Of a stretch of DNA of 64,000 nt, positions 3,793 to 26,884 are shown piece by piece. The DNA comes from Flavobacterium fontis (GTDB lineage Bacteria > Bacteroidota > Bacteroidia > Flavobacteriales > Flavobacteriaceae). Below the pieces are notes generated by a model. The model searched no databases, had not been told where the DNA came from, and saw only the letters and a list, made by a program, of their open reading frames with translations. Made by a program: the position numbers and the translations under genes. The stretch is from NCBI RefSeq assembly GCF_900129405.1, contig NZ_FQVQ01000001.1:124001-188000 (forward strand), given 5' to 3'. Position 1 is the stretch's first letter, and each line of letters opens with the position of its first letter.

Positions 3793-5262
3793 TTAAGGAT
3801 TTATGCGCGGTAATGTTACTTTAAAGGTAGTGCCTTTATGGGATTCGGACTCAAAAGTAATGGTTCCTTTATAATTTTCAATAATATTTTTAATAATCCC
3901 CAACCCGAGTCCCATGCCGCTCGTTTTGGTAGTGAACTTAGGTTCAAAGATTCGCTCTTGATAATCAGGGTCAATTCCAACGCCATTGTCTTTGACCAAA
4001 ATAACCACCCCTTCCCAATTTTGGTATACGCTAACTTGAATTCGTTTTTCCTCTTGAATTTCTGGAATGGCTTGAATGGCATTTTTGACCAAATTGGTAA
4101 TAATACGAATGAGTTGCGTGCGGTCCATGACCGTGATGATTTCTGGTTCGGCAGACTGAAACTCAATAAATTCTTCATTAAAAATATCTAGGGAAAACTC
4201 TACAACTTCAACCACATTGAGTGTTTCATTTTGCTGTGCAGGCATCGAGGCAAAGTTAGAAAACGCCGAAGCCACTGCCGTCATCGTATCGATTTGTTGA
4301 ATTAAGGTTTTGGTGTAATCGTTGAGTTTCTGTCGTAAATTCGGATCGTTTTCATCAAATTTTCGTTGAAAACTTTGTACCGTTAAACGCATCGGGGTCA
4401 ACGGATTTTTGATTTCATGAGCAACCTGTTTCGCCATTTCGCGCCACGCTTGTTCCCGTTCGGATTGGGCCAACATCGAGGCACTTTCTTCCAGTTTGTC
4501 CACCATCGCATTGTACGCTTTAATCAAGGAGTTTATCTCACGACTGTTGTCTTCAATCATGATTTTCTCATTTTTTTGATTCAAGCTCGTTTCATTGATT
4601 TTGTCCGAAATCGTTTTTAGCGATTGGGTGATGTAAGAGGAAAGGAAATACGCCAAGGCAAAGGCAATAATTAGCATGAAAAAATACACCTGACTCAACC
4701 GTACCAAGAAATTCTGGATTTCATTCTCGTAAATACTGTCGTCTTCAACATAGGGAAGATTAAGGATTCCAAGCGGTTTGAACCGATCGTCTTTGATTTG
4801 GGTAAACGATGAACGAATTTTCAACCCATCCATGTTTTTAATGTCAACATACCGTTTCTCAATCGAAGACTGGACCAGTTTCAATATATATTTTGGAATA
4901 GGCGGTGAAATGCTATCGACGGCAAAGGAAGCTTTGGACGATTTTAACAAATTTCCTTTTAAACTGTAAATATTAATTTCGACACTGTGAATATCGGAAA
5001 GCTCGTGAATTTTATCTTTAAATATTAACGGTAAATTTTTCTCCGTTAACGGGTAAGTCGTGTTGGATAAAATATAGTTGATGTGTTCCCGAACTGCATC
5101 TTCCTTGCGCTCCAAACGCTCTTGATGGTAATTTCGCGCCTCACTTTTGAACTGAAACAACGAAATCGAGGCCATTAAGATCGATGCAATCAAAATCAAT
5201 ACAATCATCGCCAGGAAAATCCGGATACGAAGGGAAAGCATGGATATTTTGAAGTTTAGCAT
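3793..5262 (-). CDS. membrane sensor histidine kinase (HAMP, HisKA, HATPase)
   Basis: This 489-residue protein has a transmembrane segment at about residues 13-32, a periplasmic sensor region of about 150 residues, a second membrane segment near 190-210 and a HAMP-like linker. The phospho-accepting His is in EMAKQVAHEIKNPLTPMRL. An ATP-binding domain follows with N-box NLVKNAIQAI, G1 box DNGVGID and a second glycine box GMGLGLGI. The HEIKNPLTP form resembles NtrY-like kinases. No response regulator is adjacent. ATG at 5262 directly touches the heptad repeat array; ATG at 5241 is an alternative start that still keeps the membrane segment. If 5262 is used, the array forms the entire 5-prime leader. 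Confidence 0.88.
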   Translation of the reverse strand: MLNFKISMLSLRIRIFLAMIVLILIASILMASISLFQFKSEARNYHQERLERKEDAVREHINYILSNTTYPLTEKNLPLIFKDKIHELSDIHSVEINIYSLKGNLLKSSKASFAVDSISPPIPKYILKLVQSSIEKRYVDIKNMDGLKIRSSFTQIKDDRFKPLGILNLPYVEDDSIYENEIQNFLVRLSQVYFFMLIIAFALAYFLSSYITQSLKTISDKINETSLNQKNEKIMIEDNSREINSLIKAYNAMVDKLEESASMLAQSEREQAWREMAKQVAHEIKNPLTPMRLTVQSFQRKFDENDPNLRQKLNDYTKTLIQQIDTMTAVASAFSNFASMPAQQNETLNVVEVVEFSLDIFNEEFIEFQSAEPEIITVMDRTQLIRIITNLVKNAIQAIPEIQEEKRIQVSVYQNWEGVVILVKDNGVGIDPDYQERIFEPKFTTKTSGMGLGLGIIKNIIENYKGTITFESESHKGTTFKVTLPRINP

Positions 5263-5387
5263 CAGTGTTCAGTGTTCAGTGTTCAGTGTTCAGTGTTCAG
5301 TGTTCAGTGTTCAGTGTTCAGTGTTCAGTGTTCAGTGTTCAGTGTTCAGTGTTCAGTGTTCAGTGTTCAGTGTTCAGTGTTCAGTGT
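5263..5387. repeat. heptad tandem array H1 (CAGTGTT, about 18 copies)
   Basis: An uninterrupted run of the 7-base unit CAGTGTT covers 125 bases with no visible unit variation. Read on the other strand the unit is CTGAACA. It runs from the start codon of the histidine kinase to nine bases before the stop of the four-helix-bundle gene. Together with the oppositely oriented array at 5884-5994 it brackets that gene. Confidence 0.97.
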
Positions 5388-5396
5388 AAAATTTTA

Positions 5397-5774
5397 CTAA
5401 GGTAGTTTTTTCGCTCCGAATTTTTCTGGGTGAATGATCATGTAGCCAATCAACTTCCCAATTTCATTGCTTTTAGCAACTAACAAAGTAAATGTTTTTT
5501 GATCAATGTAATGGCATTCTAAGGCAAATTCAAACCAACATTGTGTCTCGGTATTTTCGGTATCTGCATCCGAAAGTTTACTGATAAAATGTTTTGGATA
5601 ACCTCTTTTTCGATACGCTTCGGCGATATTTGAACAGGTACTTCGCGAACTTCTTCTTATTTGATCCGTTAACGAATACATTTCCTCTTTCGGAAACGTA
5701 CGGCTAATTTCAAATATCTCCATAGCTAGTTCAAAGCCTTTTTGATAGGCTAATAAATCTTGAAATCTGTGCAT
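5397..5774 (-). CDS. four-helix-bundle protein, S23/IVP family (copy 1)
   Basis: This 125-residue protein carries the family hallmarks: the opening HRFQDLLAYQKGFELAMEIF, the core SLTDQIRRSSRSTCSNIAEAY at about residues 34-54, and KLSDADTENTETQCWFEFAL at about 66-85. The family was first found in insertions within 23S rRNA genes of some bacteria, and a distant relative is Avd of diversity-generating retroelements. Its biochemical role is not established. Here no rRNA is near. The gene lies between two arrays of 7-base repeats pointing in opposite directions. A second, sequence-distinct member lies at 25635-26003 in the same kind of setting. A nucleic-acid-binding role in keeping or moving the arrays is inference. 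Confidence 0.88.
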   Translation of the reverse strand: MHRFQDLLAYQKGFELAMEIFEISRTFPKEEMYSLTDQIRRSSRSTCSNIAEAYRKRGYPKHFISKLSDADTENTETQCWFEFALECHYIDQKTFTLLVAKSNEIGKLIGYMIIHPEKFGAKKLP

Positions 5775-5883
5775 ATAAGTATTTTTTTGGCGGTTAAAAA
5801 AAGTGTGTATTTTAATTTATTATCATTCTTTGCAGTAGAAAATGCATTTTTTTGAATAGTGCTTTCTGCTTTATTATTGTATA

Positions 5884-5994
5884 CTGATTACTGTATACTA
5901 ATTACTGTATACTGATTACTGTATACTGATTACTGTATACTGATTACTGTATACTGATTACTGTATACTGCTTACTGCTTACTGTTCACTGAAA
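5884..5994. repeat. heptad tandem array H2 (CTGATTA / CTGTATA alternating)
   Basis: About sixteen 7-base units, mostly alternating CTGATTA and CTGTATA with variants CTAATTA, CTGCTTA, CTGTTCA and CTGAAAT. The units read on the plus strand, opposite to array H1. The last unit touches the stop codon of hemJ. Between this array and the four-helix-bundle gene lie about 110 AT-rich bases in which I see no gene. Confidence 0.95.
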
Positions 5995-6540
5995 TCACGA
6001 ATTATTTTTCTTTCTAATATTCTTGTAAAACTTGAAACCGAGCATGATGAGTATAGAGAATCCAATTATCCCTACGACGCCGTAAATCCAGTCGATGGCA
6101 TTTTTTAGAATGACCAAAAAGACTACCGCAAATAAGATAATCGTGGCGCCTTCGTTCCATAAGCGCATGAAATTGGAGGAATAGCGGGTGTCGTCGTTTT
6201 GCAACTGCTTGTAAATTTGATGGCATTTTAAATGATACGCCAAAAGAAGCGCAACAAATCCTAATTTCACTTGCATCCACGGCATGTACAACCACTCCGG
6301 ATTTAAATGCAGTAAGACCAGGGCAAACAATGTCGCCAACACTGCACTAGGCCACGTGATGATATACCACAACCGATAGGTCATGATTTTGTATTGCGCC
6401 CCGAGAATTTCCTTTTCAGGCGTAGGTTTGGATTGTGCTTCTATTTGATACACAAACAACCGAACAATGTAAAAGAGTCCGGCAAACCAAGTGATCACAA
6501 AGATCAAGTGCAAGGCCTTAATGTTATTGTAGAGTTCCAT
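5995..6540 (-). CDS. hemJ: protoporphyrinogen IX oxidase, HemJ type
   Basis: This 181-residue integral membrane protein has four or five hydrophobic helices. HemJ (UPF0093) features are IKALHLIFVITWFAGLFYIVRLFVY at the N-terminus, containing the conserved His at about residue 11, and MPWMQVKLGFVALLLAYH with the conserved Lys at about residues 85-102. The later block is RLWNEGATIILF. HemJ oxidises protoporphyrinogen IX to protoporphyrin IX in many bacteria that lack HemG and HemY. Its neighbour hemH performs the next step, and the other haem genes lie 2 kb away, which supports the call. Heptad arrays touch its 3-prime end and lie just before its 5-prime end. Confidence 0.88.
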   Translation of the reverse strand: MELYNNIKALHLIFVITWFAGLFYIVRLFVYQIEAQSKPTPEKEILGAQYKIMTYRLWYIITWPSAVLATLFALVLLHLNPEWLYMPWMQVKLGFVALLLAYHLKCHQIYKQLQNDDTRYSSNFMRLWNEGATIILFAVVFLVILKNAIDWIYGVVGIIGFSILIMLGFKFYKNIRKKNNS

Positions 6541-6546
6541 GGATGG

Positions 6547-6627
6547 GTTTCAGGTTTCAAGTTTCAGGTTTCAGGTTTCAAGTTTCAGGTTTCAGGTTTC
6601 AAGTTATTTAACTTGTAACTTAAAACA
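6547..6627. repeat. heptad array H3 (GTTTCAG/GTTTCAA x8) with short inverted arm
   Basis: Eight exact 7-base units (GTTTCAG or GTTTCAA; CTGAAAC or TTGAAAC on the other strand) run from 6547 to 6602. They are followed by units in the opposite direction (ACTTGTA, ACTTAAA). CAAGTT and AACTTG at the junction form a 6-bp stem with a 4-base loop. The array fills nearly all the space between hemH (stop 6632) and the hemJ start codon (6540). Confidence 0.93.
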
Positions 6628-13713: not shown

Positions 13714-13886
13714 AGTGACTAGTGATTAGTGATTAGTGACTAGTGATTAGTGATTAGTGATTAGTGATTAGTGACTAGTAATTATTTATATTTAAAGAAT
13801 TTATAGACGAACAAAGTAAAAGGTTAGTTACTAATTGCTGAAAGCTAATTGCTAATTACTGAAAGCTAATTGCTAACCGCTAAATA
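13714..13886. repeat. two-armed heptad array H5 between hemF and hemB
   Basis: The left arm, 13714-13783, is ten exact 7-base units AGTGATT/AGTGACT (CTAATCA on the other strand), beginning immediately after the hemF stop. A 47-base AT-rich spacer follows. The right arm, 13831-13886, is eight units in the opposite direction (CTAATTG, CTGAAAG, CTAATTA, CTAACCG, CTAAATA). The arms can pair partly as a long hairpin. The array ends ten bases before the chosen hemB ATG. Confidence 0.95.
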
Positions 13887-25523: not shown

Positions 25524-25528
25524 AGTAA

Positions 25529-25638
25529 TGTGTCAATTAGGCAATGAGACAATGTGTCAATTTAATTTGTCAATGTGAAAATCTGTCGATGTGCCAATTC
25601 CTTCAATTATTAATTGGCATACTAGCTAATTGCCTCAT
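25529..25638. repeat. octad array O1 (ATGTGTCA units, then inverted ATTGGCTC units)
   Basis: 8-base units of the form ATGTGTCA (variants ATTAGGCA, ATGAGACA, ATGTGCCA) occupy about 25529-25598. They are followed from 25613 by units in the opposite direction (ATTGGCAT, ACTAGCTA, ATTGCCTC, ATTGGCTC). The right arm runs into the last codons of the four-helix-bundle gene (stop at 25635), so the repeat encodes its C-terminal Met-Ser-Gln. Confidence 0.85.
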
Positions 25639-26003
25639 TGGCTCATCTTTTTGCTAGTTGAAATTATTTTATTTGTGATTTTTAAAATATCAAATACTTC
25701 AGACAATAATTCCTCTGTATTTGGATAGTTCTCCAATTCGTTGCAAAGAAATAACCAAAATTCAGTTTCATCTGCTTCTTTCATTGCAATTTTCATTTTA
25801 TGGATAAAATCTGCTTTACTTTCAGAATTTTGGGCCTCTTTAATATTAGCACCAATAGAAGTTCCTGATTTTAGCAATTGGTTGGCAATTACATATTTTT
25901 TATTTTCTTCTAAAATGGTACAGTATTGGACTATTTTTTTTGCAAATCCAAATGATTTAAGAAGAATTAAATTCTCTTTGTATTTCTCTTGAAATGTTAT
26001 CAT
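25635..26003 (-). CDS. four-helix-bundle protein, S23/IVP family (copy 2)
   Basis: This 122-residue protein has the family core QLLKSGTSIGANIKEAQNSE at about residues 42-61 and the helix MKIAMKEADETEFWLFLCNEL at about 70-90. It differs clearly from copy 1 at 5397-5774 (ITFQEKYKENLILLKSFGFA against HRFQDLLAYQKGFELAMEIF at the N-terminus). As with copy 1, its gene lies between short tandem-repeat arrays, but here the units are 8 bases instead of 7. The end of the gene is formed by array sequence. Function is unknown; a link to the repeats is inference from context. Confidence 0.88.
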   Translation of the reverse strand: MITFQEKYKENLILLKSFGFAKKIVQYCTILEENKKYVIANQLLKSGTSIGANIKEAQNSESKADFIHKMKIAMKEADETEFWLFLCNELENYPNTEELLSEVFDILKITNKIISTSKKMSQ

Positions 26004-26017
26004 GGCTTATATGTTTA

Positions 26018-26124
26018 ATGTGTCAATGTGTCAATGAGGCAATGTGTCAATGAGGCAATGAGGCAATGTGCCGATGTGTCAATAAACTAATTGGTACATT
26101 GACTCATCGGCATATTGACTAATT
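26018..26124. repeat. octad array O2 (AATGTGTC x8, then inverted units)
   Basis: The left arm, 26018-26081, is eight 8-base units (AATGTGTC, AATGAGGC, AATGTGCC, GATGTGTC). The right arm, about 26089-26124, has units in the opposite direction (ATTGGTAC, ATTGACTC, ATCGGCAT, ATTGACTA). The array fills the gap between the four-helix-bundle start and the scoB stop, ending in that stop codon. Confidence 0.92.
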
Positions 26125-26779
26125 AAAAAACCATCTCCGGCACTTCGCCATCAATGATTAATTCCGCTTCGGTCGCTTGAATGATTTCATCTACGCTTAC
26201 GCCGGGAGCGCGTTCCAACAATTTGAAACCGTTGGGAGTGACTTCCAGTACAGCCAATTCAGTTACGACTTTTTTCACACAGCCGACACCGGTTAGGGGT
26301 AAGGTACATTTTTTCAAAATCTTACTTTCCCCTGCCTTGTTCACGTGCATCATAGCGACAATGATGTTTTCGGCAGAGGCCACCAAGTCCATCGCGCCCC
26401 CCATTCCTTTTACCATTTTACCTGGGATTTTCCAGTTGGCAATATCTCCGTTTTCGGCTACTTCCATGGCACCCAAAATGGTTAAGTCCACTTTTTGTGC
26501 GCGAATCATTCCGAAACTGAAAGCCGAGTCAAAGAAACTCGCCCCCGGTAAGGTCGTGATGGTTTGTTTACCTGCGTTGATGATGTCGGCATCTTCTTCG
26601 CCTTCAAAGGGAAACGGACCCATACCGAGTACGCCGTTCTCCGATTGAAATTCGACCGAAATATCGGTGCGAACATAGTTTGCGACTAGGGTTGGAATCC
26701 CAATGCCGAGATTCACGTAATAGCCGTCTTGTACTTCTTTTGCAATGCGTTTTGCAATTTGGTTTTTATCTAAAGCCAT
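26123..26779 (-). CDS. scoB: 3-oxoacid CoA-transferase, subunit B
   Basis: This 218-residue beta subunit carries the catalytic Glu in EFQSENGVLGMGPFP at about residues 42-56, which forms the glutamyl-CoA thioester intermediate. Other landmarks are YVNLGIGIPTLVANY near residue 20 and GAMDLVASAENIIVAM. With subunit A it moves CoA between succinyl-CoA and an oxoacid such as acetoacetate. The two genes are in the usual A-B order but are separated by an octad repeat array of about 100 bases instead of the few bases normal for this pair. Confidence 0.94.
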   Translation of the reverse strand: MALDKNQIAKRIAKEVQDGYYVNLGIGIPTLVANYVRTDISVEFQSENGVLGMGPFPFEGEEDADIINAGKQTITTLPGASFFDSAFSFGMIRAQKVDLTILGAMEVAENGDIANWKIPGKMVKGMGGAMDLVASAENIIVAMMHVNKAGESKILKKCTLPLTGVGCVKKVVTELAVLEVTPNGFKLLERAPGVSVDEIIQATEAELIIDGEVPEMVF

Positions 26780-26783
26780 AGTT

Positions 26784-26884
26784 GATGTGTCGATGTGTCA
26801 ATGTGTCAATGAGTCGATGAGTCGATGTGTCAATGAGTCAATTTCACTAGTATTGTCTCATTGCCGTATTGTCACATTGGCTAA
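26784..26884. repeat. octad array O3 between scoA and scoB
   Basis: The left arm, 26784-26839, is seven 8-base units (GATGTGTC, AATGTGTC, AATGAGTC, GATGAGTC). A short spacer follows, then the right arm, 26852-26884, has units in the opposite direction (ATTGTCTC, ATTGCCGT, ATTGTCAC, ATTGGCTA). The array starts four bases before the scoB start codon and ends at the scoA stop. It would be transcribed inside the scoAB message, where the arms can fold together. Confidence 0.93.

Follow-up and report, generated by a model that had tools for sequence, protein, structure and literature searches.

Four-helix-bundle (S23) genes outside rRNA in Flavobacterium as candidate protein halves of subfamily-specific protein-repeat pairs

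Genes of the S23 four-helix-bundle family that lie outside rRNA genes in Flavobacterium are, on balance, probably the protein halves of subfamily-specific protein-repeat pairs, which resemble REPINs and their RAYT proteins and operate without a transposase. As judged from sequence comparison, tandem arrays face inward around these genes, a unit specific to each subfamily recurs at unrelated sites, arrays away from S23 genes reuse the units resident in the genome, and arrays and subfamilies co-occur at the level of genomes. We further infer binding by S23, movement of the elements and a function for them. To our knowledge, S23 has no known catalytic function and the family has no assigned function. 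No description of S23 genes tied to tandem-repeat arrays was found in the literature searched, which lay mostly outside subscription journals.

The window, by which we mean the whole 64-kb stretch of DNA that was analysed, is part of a genome of 3.08 Mb. Its first S23 locus (5262-5991) contains a minus-strand gene (5397-5774) for a protein of 125 amino acids, a four-helix bundle of the 23S rRNA-intervening-sequence type belonging to subfamily A, as judged by a subfamily plateau across the genus. The protein scored above the curated cut-offs of PF05635 (107.9 bits; cut-off 33.8) and TIGR02436 (102 bits; cut-off 24), which confirms the S23/IVP-type gene named in a preliminary description of this DNA. 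A sensor kinase gene (3793-5262) and hemJ (5995-6540) adjoin it on the same strand, and each of the two spacers contains an array. The array downstream of S23 (5262-5387, minus strand) has 18.0 copies of TCAGTGT (equal to CAGTGTT) with 100% matches and a TRF score of 252; CAGTGTT on the plus strand is AACACTG in the S23 sense, and the unit points at the gene. The array upstream of S23 (5873-5991, minus strand) consists of CAGTATA/CAGTAAT heptads in the S23 sense, also pointing at the gene. Here TRF found the 14-bp unit ATTACTGTATACTG, which is two heptads, at 5873-5977 (7.5 copies, 95% matches), and rows of longer period extend to 5991 (90-92% matches). These copy numbers, about 18 and about 15-17, agree with the approximately 18 CAGTGTT units on one side and 16 units on the other that had been described, and since CAGTNNN reads toward the gene in both arrays, the earlier statement that they point in opposite directions was right. 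The RNA fold predicted for 5258-5994 (minus strand) has an energy of -166.8 kcal/mol (z -5.85, 20 shuffles). In this predicted fold the two arms pair across the gene through their CAGU and ACUG cores, every 7 nt, and the variable bases between the paired cores are mostly unpaired.

The window genome gave nine matches to the PF05635 profile, eight of them above cut-off. By eye, short-unit repeats flank all eight confident S23 genes on both sides, and the ninth, weak match has no repeats. The unit is common to the two sides of one locus and differs between loci, again by eye: AGTGACT, GGTTTCA, CAGTGTT, AATTATG, the 8-mers AATGTGTC and CTCAGNNN, and degenerate AAGAAGCAAG and AAATTCC. With 250-bp flanks, seven of the eight genes reached an inverted flank score of at least 15, and the eighth, which has an in-frame stop, scored 11. 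Long co-directional open frames bracket all eight loci and none lies in a 23S rRNA gene; it was at these loci that the hypothesis arose. The S23 match at 1501-1815 of locus L001 has an in-frame TAG, yet the best family score in the window genome, and its flanks carry the 8-bp unit CTCAGNNN, which recurs in three arrays of locus L231. The second S23 element of the window (25527-26083, minus strand) has its gene at 25635-26003 and arrays of the 8-bp unit AATGTGTC at 25527-25598 and 26017-26083. These arrays run in the same direction, each being followed by partly inverted copies, and form no clean inverted pair (flank scores: direct 29.0, inverted 16.5). Matches to one S23 gene of the window genome were listed in named genomes for Flavobacterium stagni (93%), a Flavobacteriaceae MAG (93%) and a Flavobacterium MAG (84%), a list from which records very near the window genome may be absent. 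Elsewhere in the window, one terminator-like hairpin (AAAAAGAGAACCGATGAGGTTCTCTTTT) is present on both sides of the gene at 892-2448.

It had been suggested that arrays might flank S23 genes more often than other genes, and this proved to be the case across the genus. S23 matches above cut-off were present in 30 of 40 relatives, and in a first, narrow set of the best locus per genome the inverted score was at least 15 in 16 of 29 loci and lower in 13. The genus set comprised 60 wider stretches in list order, with matches at contig ends skipped and seven stretches from the window genome; it contained 64 S23 genes, and 307 other genes of the same stretches, none adjoining S23, served as controls. 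Local complementarity between 200-bp flanks, with gene calls by a simple script and a threshold of 15, was found for 47 of the 64 S23 genes versus 2 of the 307 controls (Fisher p about 1e-42, with loci that are not independent). Outside the window genome the figure was 41/57. The inverted signal was absent in 17/64, and direct flank similarity of at least 15 occurred in only 11/64. Of the two matching controls, one belongs to PF13366 (GxxExxY), and an identical terminator-like hairpin flanks the other on either side. S23 genes were also more often co-directional with both neighbours (56/64 vs 182/307 controls, p 7e-6), and none was opposed to both (0/64 vs 22/307). In a phylum-wide set, where the 99th percentile of mismatched pairs was 14.2, the loci outside the genus reached an inverted score of 15 in 11 of 26 cases (15 below) and a direct score of 15 in two, and only one of the four loci inside the genus reached inverted 15. 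Matches to the family occurred in 116 of 148 Bacteroidota genomes sampled, and S23 queries matched in 287 of 299 genomes of the genus. Chance or low complexity was rejected as an explanation by the gene control, the mismatched-pair controls and the shuffled folds.

In these comparisons the repeat unit follows the protein subfamily and not the site. The 299 genomes were searched with the window S23 protein and with the S23 protein encoded between gmk and nadD, and the 30 best loci of each were examined. Subfamily A has the heptads CAGTGTT, CAGTGAT, CAGTATT and CAGTGGT, with CAGTCGC in one sub-branch, and its CAGT heptads span seven protein-level site groups. Subfamily B has TAGT heptads at gmk-nadD and in two other site groups, and one member (L176) has drifted. 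For a pooled arm comparison 146 loci were used, duplicates, loci cut by contig ends and misframed loci being dropped, and arms were called similar at a score of at least 15. Among pairs of different sites, arms were similar in 36/3449 pairs below 30% protein identity, 78/4089 at 30-40%, 34/1492 at 40-50%, 26/288 at 50-60%, 118/285 at 60-70% and 188/206 at 70% or more (1.0, 1.9, 2.3, 9.0, 41.4 and 91.3%). Reversed units gave 22, 35, 22, 2, 14 and 37 matches in the same bins (0.6, 0.9, 1.5, 0.7, 4.9 and 18.0%). The proposal that array sequence tracks protein subfamily is borne out by this rise from 1-2% below 50% identity to 91% at 70% or more. With sites defined by flank proteins, the median arm score was at least 13 in 19 of 36 site-group pairs of at least 60% identity (reversed, 0/36), and the other 17, which had no shared arms at that median score, speak against the link. 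The nearest neighbour by arm belonged to the same protein family in 72 of 110 cases, compared to a permuted mean of 17.6 (maximum 30) and 29 with reversed units. A first cross-site test on 94 loci was weaker. Arm similarity rose with S23 identity for units in the same orientation alone (Spearman 0.144; highest permuted value 0.105), but among pairs of at least 60% identity the arm scores averaged 12.6, which is within the permuted range (maximum 13.7). That conserved genes were caught by an accident of site was rejected by both DNA-level and protein-level site groups.

Conservation within the unit was unequal. Among arms past the periodicity threshold, to which the calculation was confined, 24 arms from 15 subfamily-A loci gave C 1.50, A 2.00, G 1.75 and T 2.00 bits, then 0.96, 0.96 and 1.59; 32 arms from 23 subfamily-B loci gave T 1.80, A 1.66, G 2.00 and T 1.47 bits, then 0.29, 1.14 and 0.58. 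This is as expected if the core is read by something.

The genes themselves seem to be inherited mostly vertically. The best match of 96 S23 proteins came from the same site of another genome for 55, from a different site for 39 and, for two, from the same site within their own genome, one of these last two pairs being a single gene entered twice; for S23 genes at shared sites it was at the same site in 57 of 65. Because best matches are mostly same-site, moves are infrequent on this time scale. Subfamily A is present at unrelated sites, and twice in genome G007 (78% identity). The preliminary description had envisaged a hairpin-ended mobile element. This reading is supported in part: its paired, inward-facing ends were recovered, descent at shared sites looks mostly vertical, and PF13366 genes have similar ends (see below). 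At gmk-nadD, tblastn found S23 in 8 of 30 nadD loci (own genome included) and gmk was absent within 1.5 kb in two; the 20 loci with gmk adjoining and without S23 divide into 10 with another hairpin (score of at least 12) and 10 without. Genome G009 has a 66-bp TAGT hairpin alone at this site, without S23, and its best subfamily-B match has 47% identity. In genome G043 the 254-bp gmk-nadD spacer (L276) is filled by several near-identical palindromes of the AGACGCGATTAATCGCGTCT type, another kind of hairpin. Excerpts of a study on Flavobacterium columnare place gmk, four-helix-bundle and nadD genes within called phage regions of two strains (PMC5524665), and this arrangement, as excerpted, is the recurrent S23 site seen here. 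Ratios of dN/dS in three close-ortholog pairs each were 0.041-0.072 for subfamily A and 0.048, 0.061 and 0.282 for subfamily B. By this measure S23 is under purifying selection at the two sites tested, and the proteins seem to matter, unlike the Coxiella IVS ORF as it is reported in the available part of PMC4990558.

Arrays without S23 genes were found in the window and in the wider genome. The window contains a GGTTTCA array at 6546-6605 (score 51.5 to the L075 arm), whose unit also bounds the S23 gene at sufC-sufD in the window genome. A pair of arrays lies between hemF and hemB (13714-13876): the TAGTGAT array at 13714-13784 has the unit of the gmk-nadD S23 gene of the window genome (score 55.0, L074 arm), and that at 13831-13876, roughly its complement, scored 10.5, below the match threshold. 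The 8-bp array ATGTGTCA at 26785-26842 (score 33.0 to the L007 arm) shares its unit with the window's second S23 element, which lies one gene away. Over 25527-26842, one 8-bp unit occupies neighbouring spacers, namely those that flank the second S23 gene and another one gene away, and neighbouring spacers with a common unit also occur in L082, L083 and L081; it looks as though the unit spreads locally.

A scan of the window genome covered 20 systematic 20-kb stretches and the window, together 464 kb, with a match threshold of at least 15. There, 24 of 27 non-coding arrays away from S23 genes matched a resident S23 arm (nine arm entries for eight loci, one locus being entered twice; three of the 24 matches at 15.0-15.5), compared to a mean of 8.3 and a maximum of 16 for 200 equal-sized arm sets from other genomes. 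Genome G006 gave 17 matches among 31 S23-less arrays (null mean 4.9, maximum 13, reached by 0/200). Genome G010, with only four arms, gave 3/14 (null mean 0.9, reached by 11/200) and is a weak replication. Only 3 of the 24 matched solo arrays of the window genome had a complementary arm within 150 bp (two inward, one outward), so most solo arrays are half-elements. They showed no clear co-directional preference in this genome (14/166 co-directional, 4/28 convergent and 1/32 divergent spacers), and their position in co-directional spacers as a sign of RNA action was unsupported on these counts.

Arrays and subfamilies were also associated between genomes. A pattern of four CAGT heptads occurred in 162 of 299 genomes and the corresponding TAGT pattern in 153, the arms of S23 elements themselves being counted. 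Subfamily A was assigned to 108 genomes (listed match of at least 50% identity) and subfamily B to 67 (E <= 5.6e-33). Subfamily A accompanied CAGT arrays (odds ratio 3.5-5.0, p < 1e-6) and subfamily B did not (1.1-1.6, p 0.13-0.75), whereas TAGT arrays were associated with B (7.9-8.4, p < 1e-9) and only weakly with A (1.4-1.7, p 0.04-0.36). Arrays with at least five matches were present without the matching subfamily in 28/191 genomes for CAGT and 53/232 for TAGT. In the 12 genomes without an S23 match to either protein query (E <= 0.001; some incomplete), CAGT and TAGT arrays were each found in 0/12, versus 162/287 and 153/287 of the S23-bearing genomes (Fisher p 7e-5 and 1.4e-4). The counts are uncorrected for phylogeny, and since locus pairs, like genomes, are related to one another, the p values are optimistic. 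The controls with the pattern read backward gave mostly zero counts for CAGT. For TAGT they did not: its backward form, TGATNNN heptads, is itself abundant in some genomes (e.g. G073 and G240) and is perhaps a further code. The analogy with REP sequences and RAYT proteins drawn in the preliminary description gains from the reuse of resident units by S23-less arrays and from the co-occurrence at genome level.

Inverted ends of a similar kind also occur outside the S23 family. PF13366 genes (GxxExxY, PDDEXK_3; nuclease-like by family name) are multi-copy in the genus, in 20 of 26 genomes. Their loci (L099-L128) had inverted flanks of at least 15 in 21 of 30 cases, a value equal to the 95th percentile of mismatched pairs, and 13 of 30 exceeded the 99th percentile (20.7). 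The flank words are different ones (for example CGCAAAG, CACAAAG and ACAGATT; L099-L128 and L064:3909-4286). A link of PF13366 to the S23-type architecture is suggestive.

We propose the following system. Each S23 subfamily would have its own unit of 7 or 8 nt with a conserved core (CAGT in A, TAGT in B) and variable positions, as a rule in two arrays that face inward on either side of the gene, within a spacer between co-directional genes. Either the transcript or single-stranded DNA could then form an extended hairpin whose loop holds the S23 frame, and an S23 oligomer may bind its own array on RNA or single-stranded DNA, at about one core per heptad. Each of the PDB relatives 2rld and 2gsc has five chains, which would fit a pentamer. 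More tentatively, and by analogy with the role proposed for RAYT proteins at REPINs, S23 binding might help host DNA machinery to maintain or copy the element and the S23-less arrays. Since no reverse transcriptase was found in the window genome and the Y1 gene has its own repeats, any copying would proceed via host enzymes or another partner. Repeat spreading, as in REPIN/RAYT systems, is our first choice for the main role, ahead of operon regulation and of hairpin protection only. More broadly, and tentatively, the S23 family could consist of many orthogonal repeat-binding proteins with a private heptad code for each paralog, which make, spread or police arrays without a transposase; many such pairs may exist per Bacteroidota genome, with PF13366 maybe as a second type.

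Two other readings of the same loci deserve to be weighed. One, which we regard as rather unlikely, has the arrays serve the host: S23 would be an RNA-binding regulator that controls its own message and operons with the same code through arrays in operon spacers as binding sites. TRAP, for example, binds regularly spaced triplets. Such a regulon would fit the purifying selection on S23, the excess of co-directional neighbours, the core and variable positions at heptad period, and the location of arrays at S23 genes between operon genes, often abutting the start codon. For TAACTGA heptads just upstream of start codons a post-transcriptional regulator was proposed, according to the part of the text available (MacGregor, 2015; PMC4679880). 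However, array positions are not conserved, as gmk-nadD has S23 in 8/30 loci and a hairpin in 10/20 S23-less ones, solo arrays of the window genome are not concentrated in co-directional spacers, and within a single genome the S23 genes have, by eye, eight distinct units. The other reading, in our opinion unlikely, makes S23 a passenger: the arrays would be microsatellites born by slippage, inverted arms would be kept alike by template-switching at the hairpin, and S23 in the loop would be copied together with the arms. Shared arms at new sites could indeed arise by co-transfer without recognition. Arms within a locus are more alike than orthologous arms at three of four sites (thl-acad 14.7 vs 9.6/10.3; sufC-sufD 20.2 vs 14.8/13.2; a third site 14.3 vs 8.7/5.7), a comparison weakened because some sites hold different S23 subfamilies. 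Copy number also shifts fast between close relatives while the S23 gene stays, and some neighbouring spacers have a common unit. Against this, the remaining site (hpd) shows higher similarity between orthologous arms (37.3/45.2) than between the two arms of one locus (27.7), and slippage alone sits poorly with the unequal column conservation across loci, the absence of CAGT/TAGT arrays from the 12 genomes without detected S23 and the purifying selection on S23.

It is highly improbable that the arrays are REPs of the RAYT-like Y1 transposase of the genome with S23 as an accidental neighbour. The window genome does have one PF01797 match (34.5 bits, cut-off 23), but the units that flank this Y1 locus on both sides are 21 bp long (CGGATTGAAAATCCGCGCCAT) and unlike the S23 arrays, and a single transposase would not account for multiple units, each tied to a different S23 subfamily. 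REPs made by this RAYT were rejected, as the sole Y1 match lies elsewhere in the genome with its own 21-bp repeats. The CGGATTGAAAATCCGCGCCAT units of this locus (L262) lie at 517-559 and 2664-2709, and the Y1 gene and its units are possibly a classical RAYT with its REPs.

The preferred reading, a protein-repeat pair, offers a testable function for a widespread protein family and would explain the origin of many short tandem arrays in Flavobacterium genomes. The pairs on offer as natural protein-repeat codes are A with CAGT and B with TAGT. Spread of the arrays without a transposase, if it occurs, would be a new route by which repeats colonise bacterial genomes; a regulatory role would instead make the arrays a set of parallel post-transcriptional regulons.

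Among known systems, the bAvd proteins of diversity-generating retroelements (DGRs), a related family, work with RNA and a reverse transcriptase. The window S23 protein scored 42.7 bits against the bAvd model (cut-off 40) and 36.9 against the Avd equivalog (cut-off 80, not reached). The reverse transcriptase profile PF00078 had no match in the window genome and matched 3 of 14 control genomes; lacking a reverse transcriptase in the window genome, a retroelement (DGR, bAvd) was rejected. In the portion of PMC8934634 at hand, Avd-like domains are near 62% of DGR reverse transcriptases. The TAACTGA heptamers of Beggiatoaceae, Cyanobacteria and some Bacteroidetes are, like the arrays described here, intergenic 7-bp tandem repeats that frequently lie close to start codons, with up to 43 copies, and other heptamers occur beside them in some Bacteroidetes (PMC4679880, partial text). 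They differ in having one central unit; inverted pairing around a gene was not found in that partial text, from which the terms 'four helix' and '23S rRNA' are absent and in which no link to S23 was found (PMC4679880).

Intervening sequences of 23S rRNA have, like 47 of the 64 genes here, an S23 ORF in the loop of complementary ends. In Coxiella the IVS measures 428-444 nt, has a stem of 28 bp and is cleaved in vitro by RNase III, and its ORF is reported to be undergoing reductive evolution and, apparently, to remain untranslated (PMC4990558, in part). The elements described here lie between protein-coding genes, have arrays for arms and a code for each subfamily, occur several times per genome and are under purifying selection at the two sites tested, whereas reductive evolution is reported for the Coxiella ORF (PMC4990558, same excerpt). 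REPINs, which consist of two REPs in inverted order and are linked to RAYTs, share with the present system intergenic inverted repeats, predicted hairpins and several groups per genome that are each tied to a protein gene (excerpts of PMC3116915 and PMC8266576). In both systems the repeat class is specific to a protein group and dispersed away from the gene, here also in G006 and weakly in G010. The protein is a small four-helix bundle (PF05635) here and an HUH/Y1 transposase there, and the repeats are tandem 7-8-bp arrays with CAGT/TAGT cores here versus one short palindrome, mostly GTAG-headed, there; cleavage or an intermediate is not known here. We count the system as a new kind because the defining feature of each nearest kind, the transposase or the location in rRNA, is absent. 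If the REPIN/RAYT logic itself is taken as the kind, it may be placed within REPIN/RAYT-like systems.
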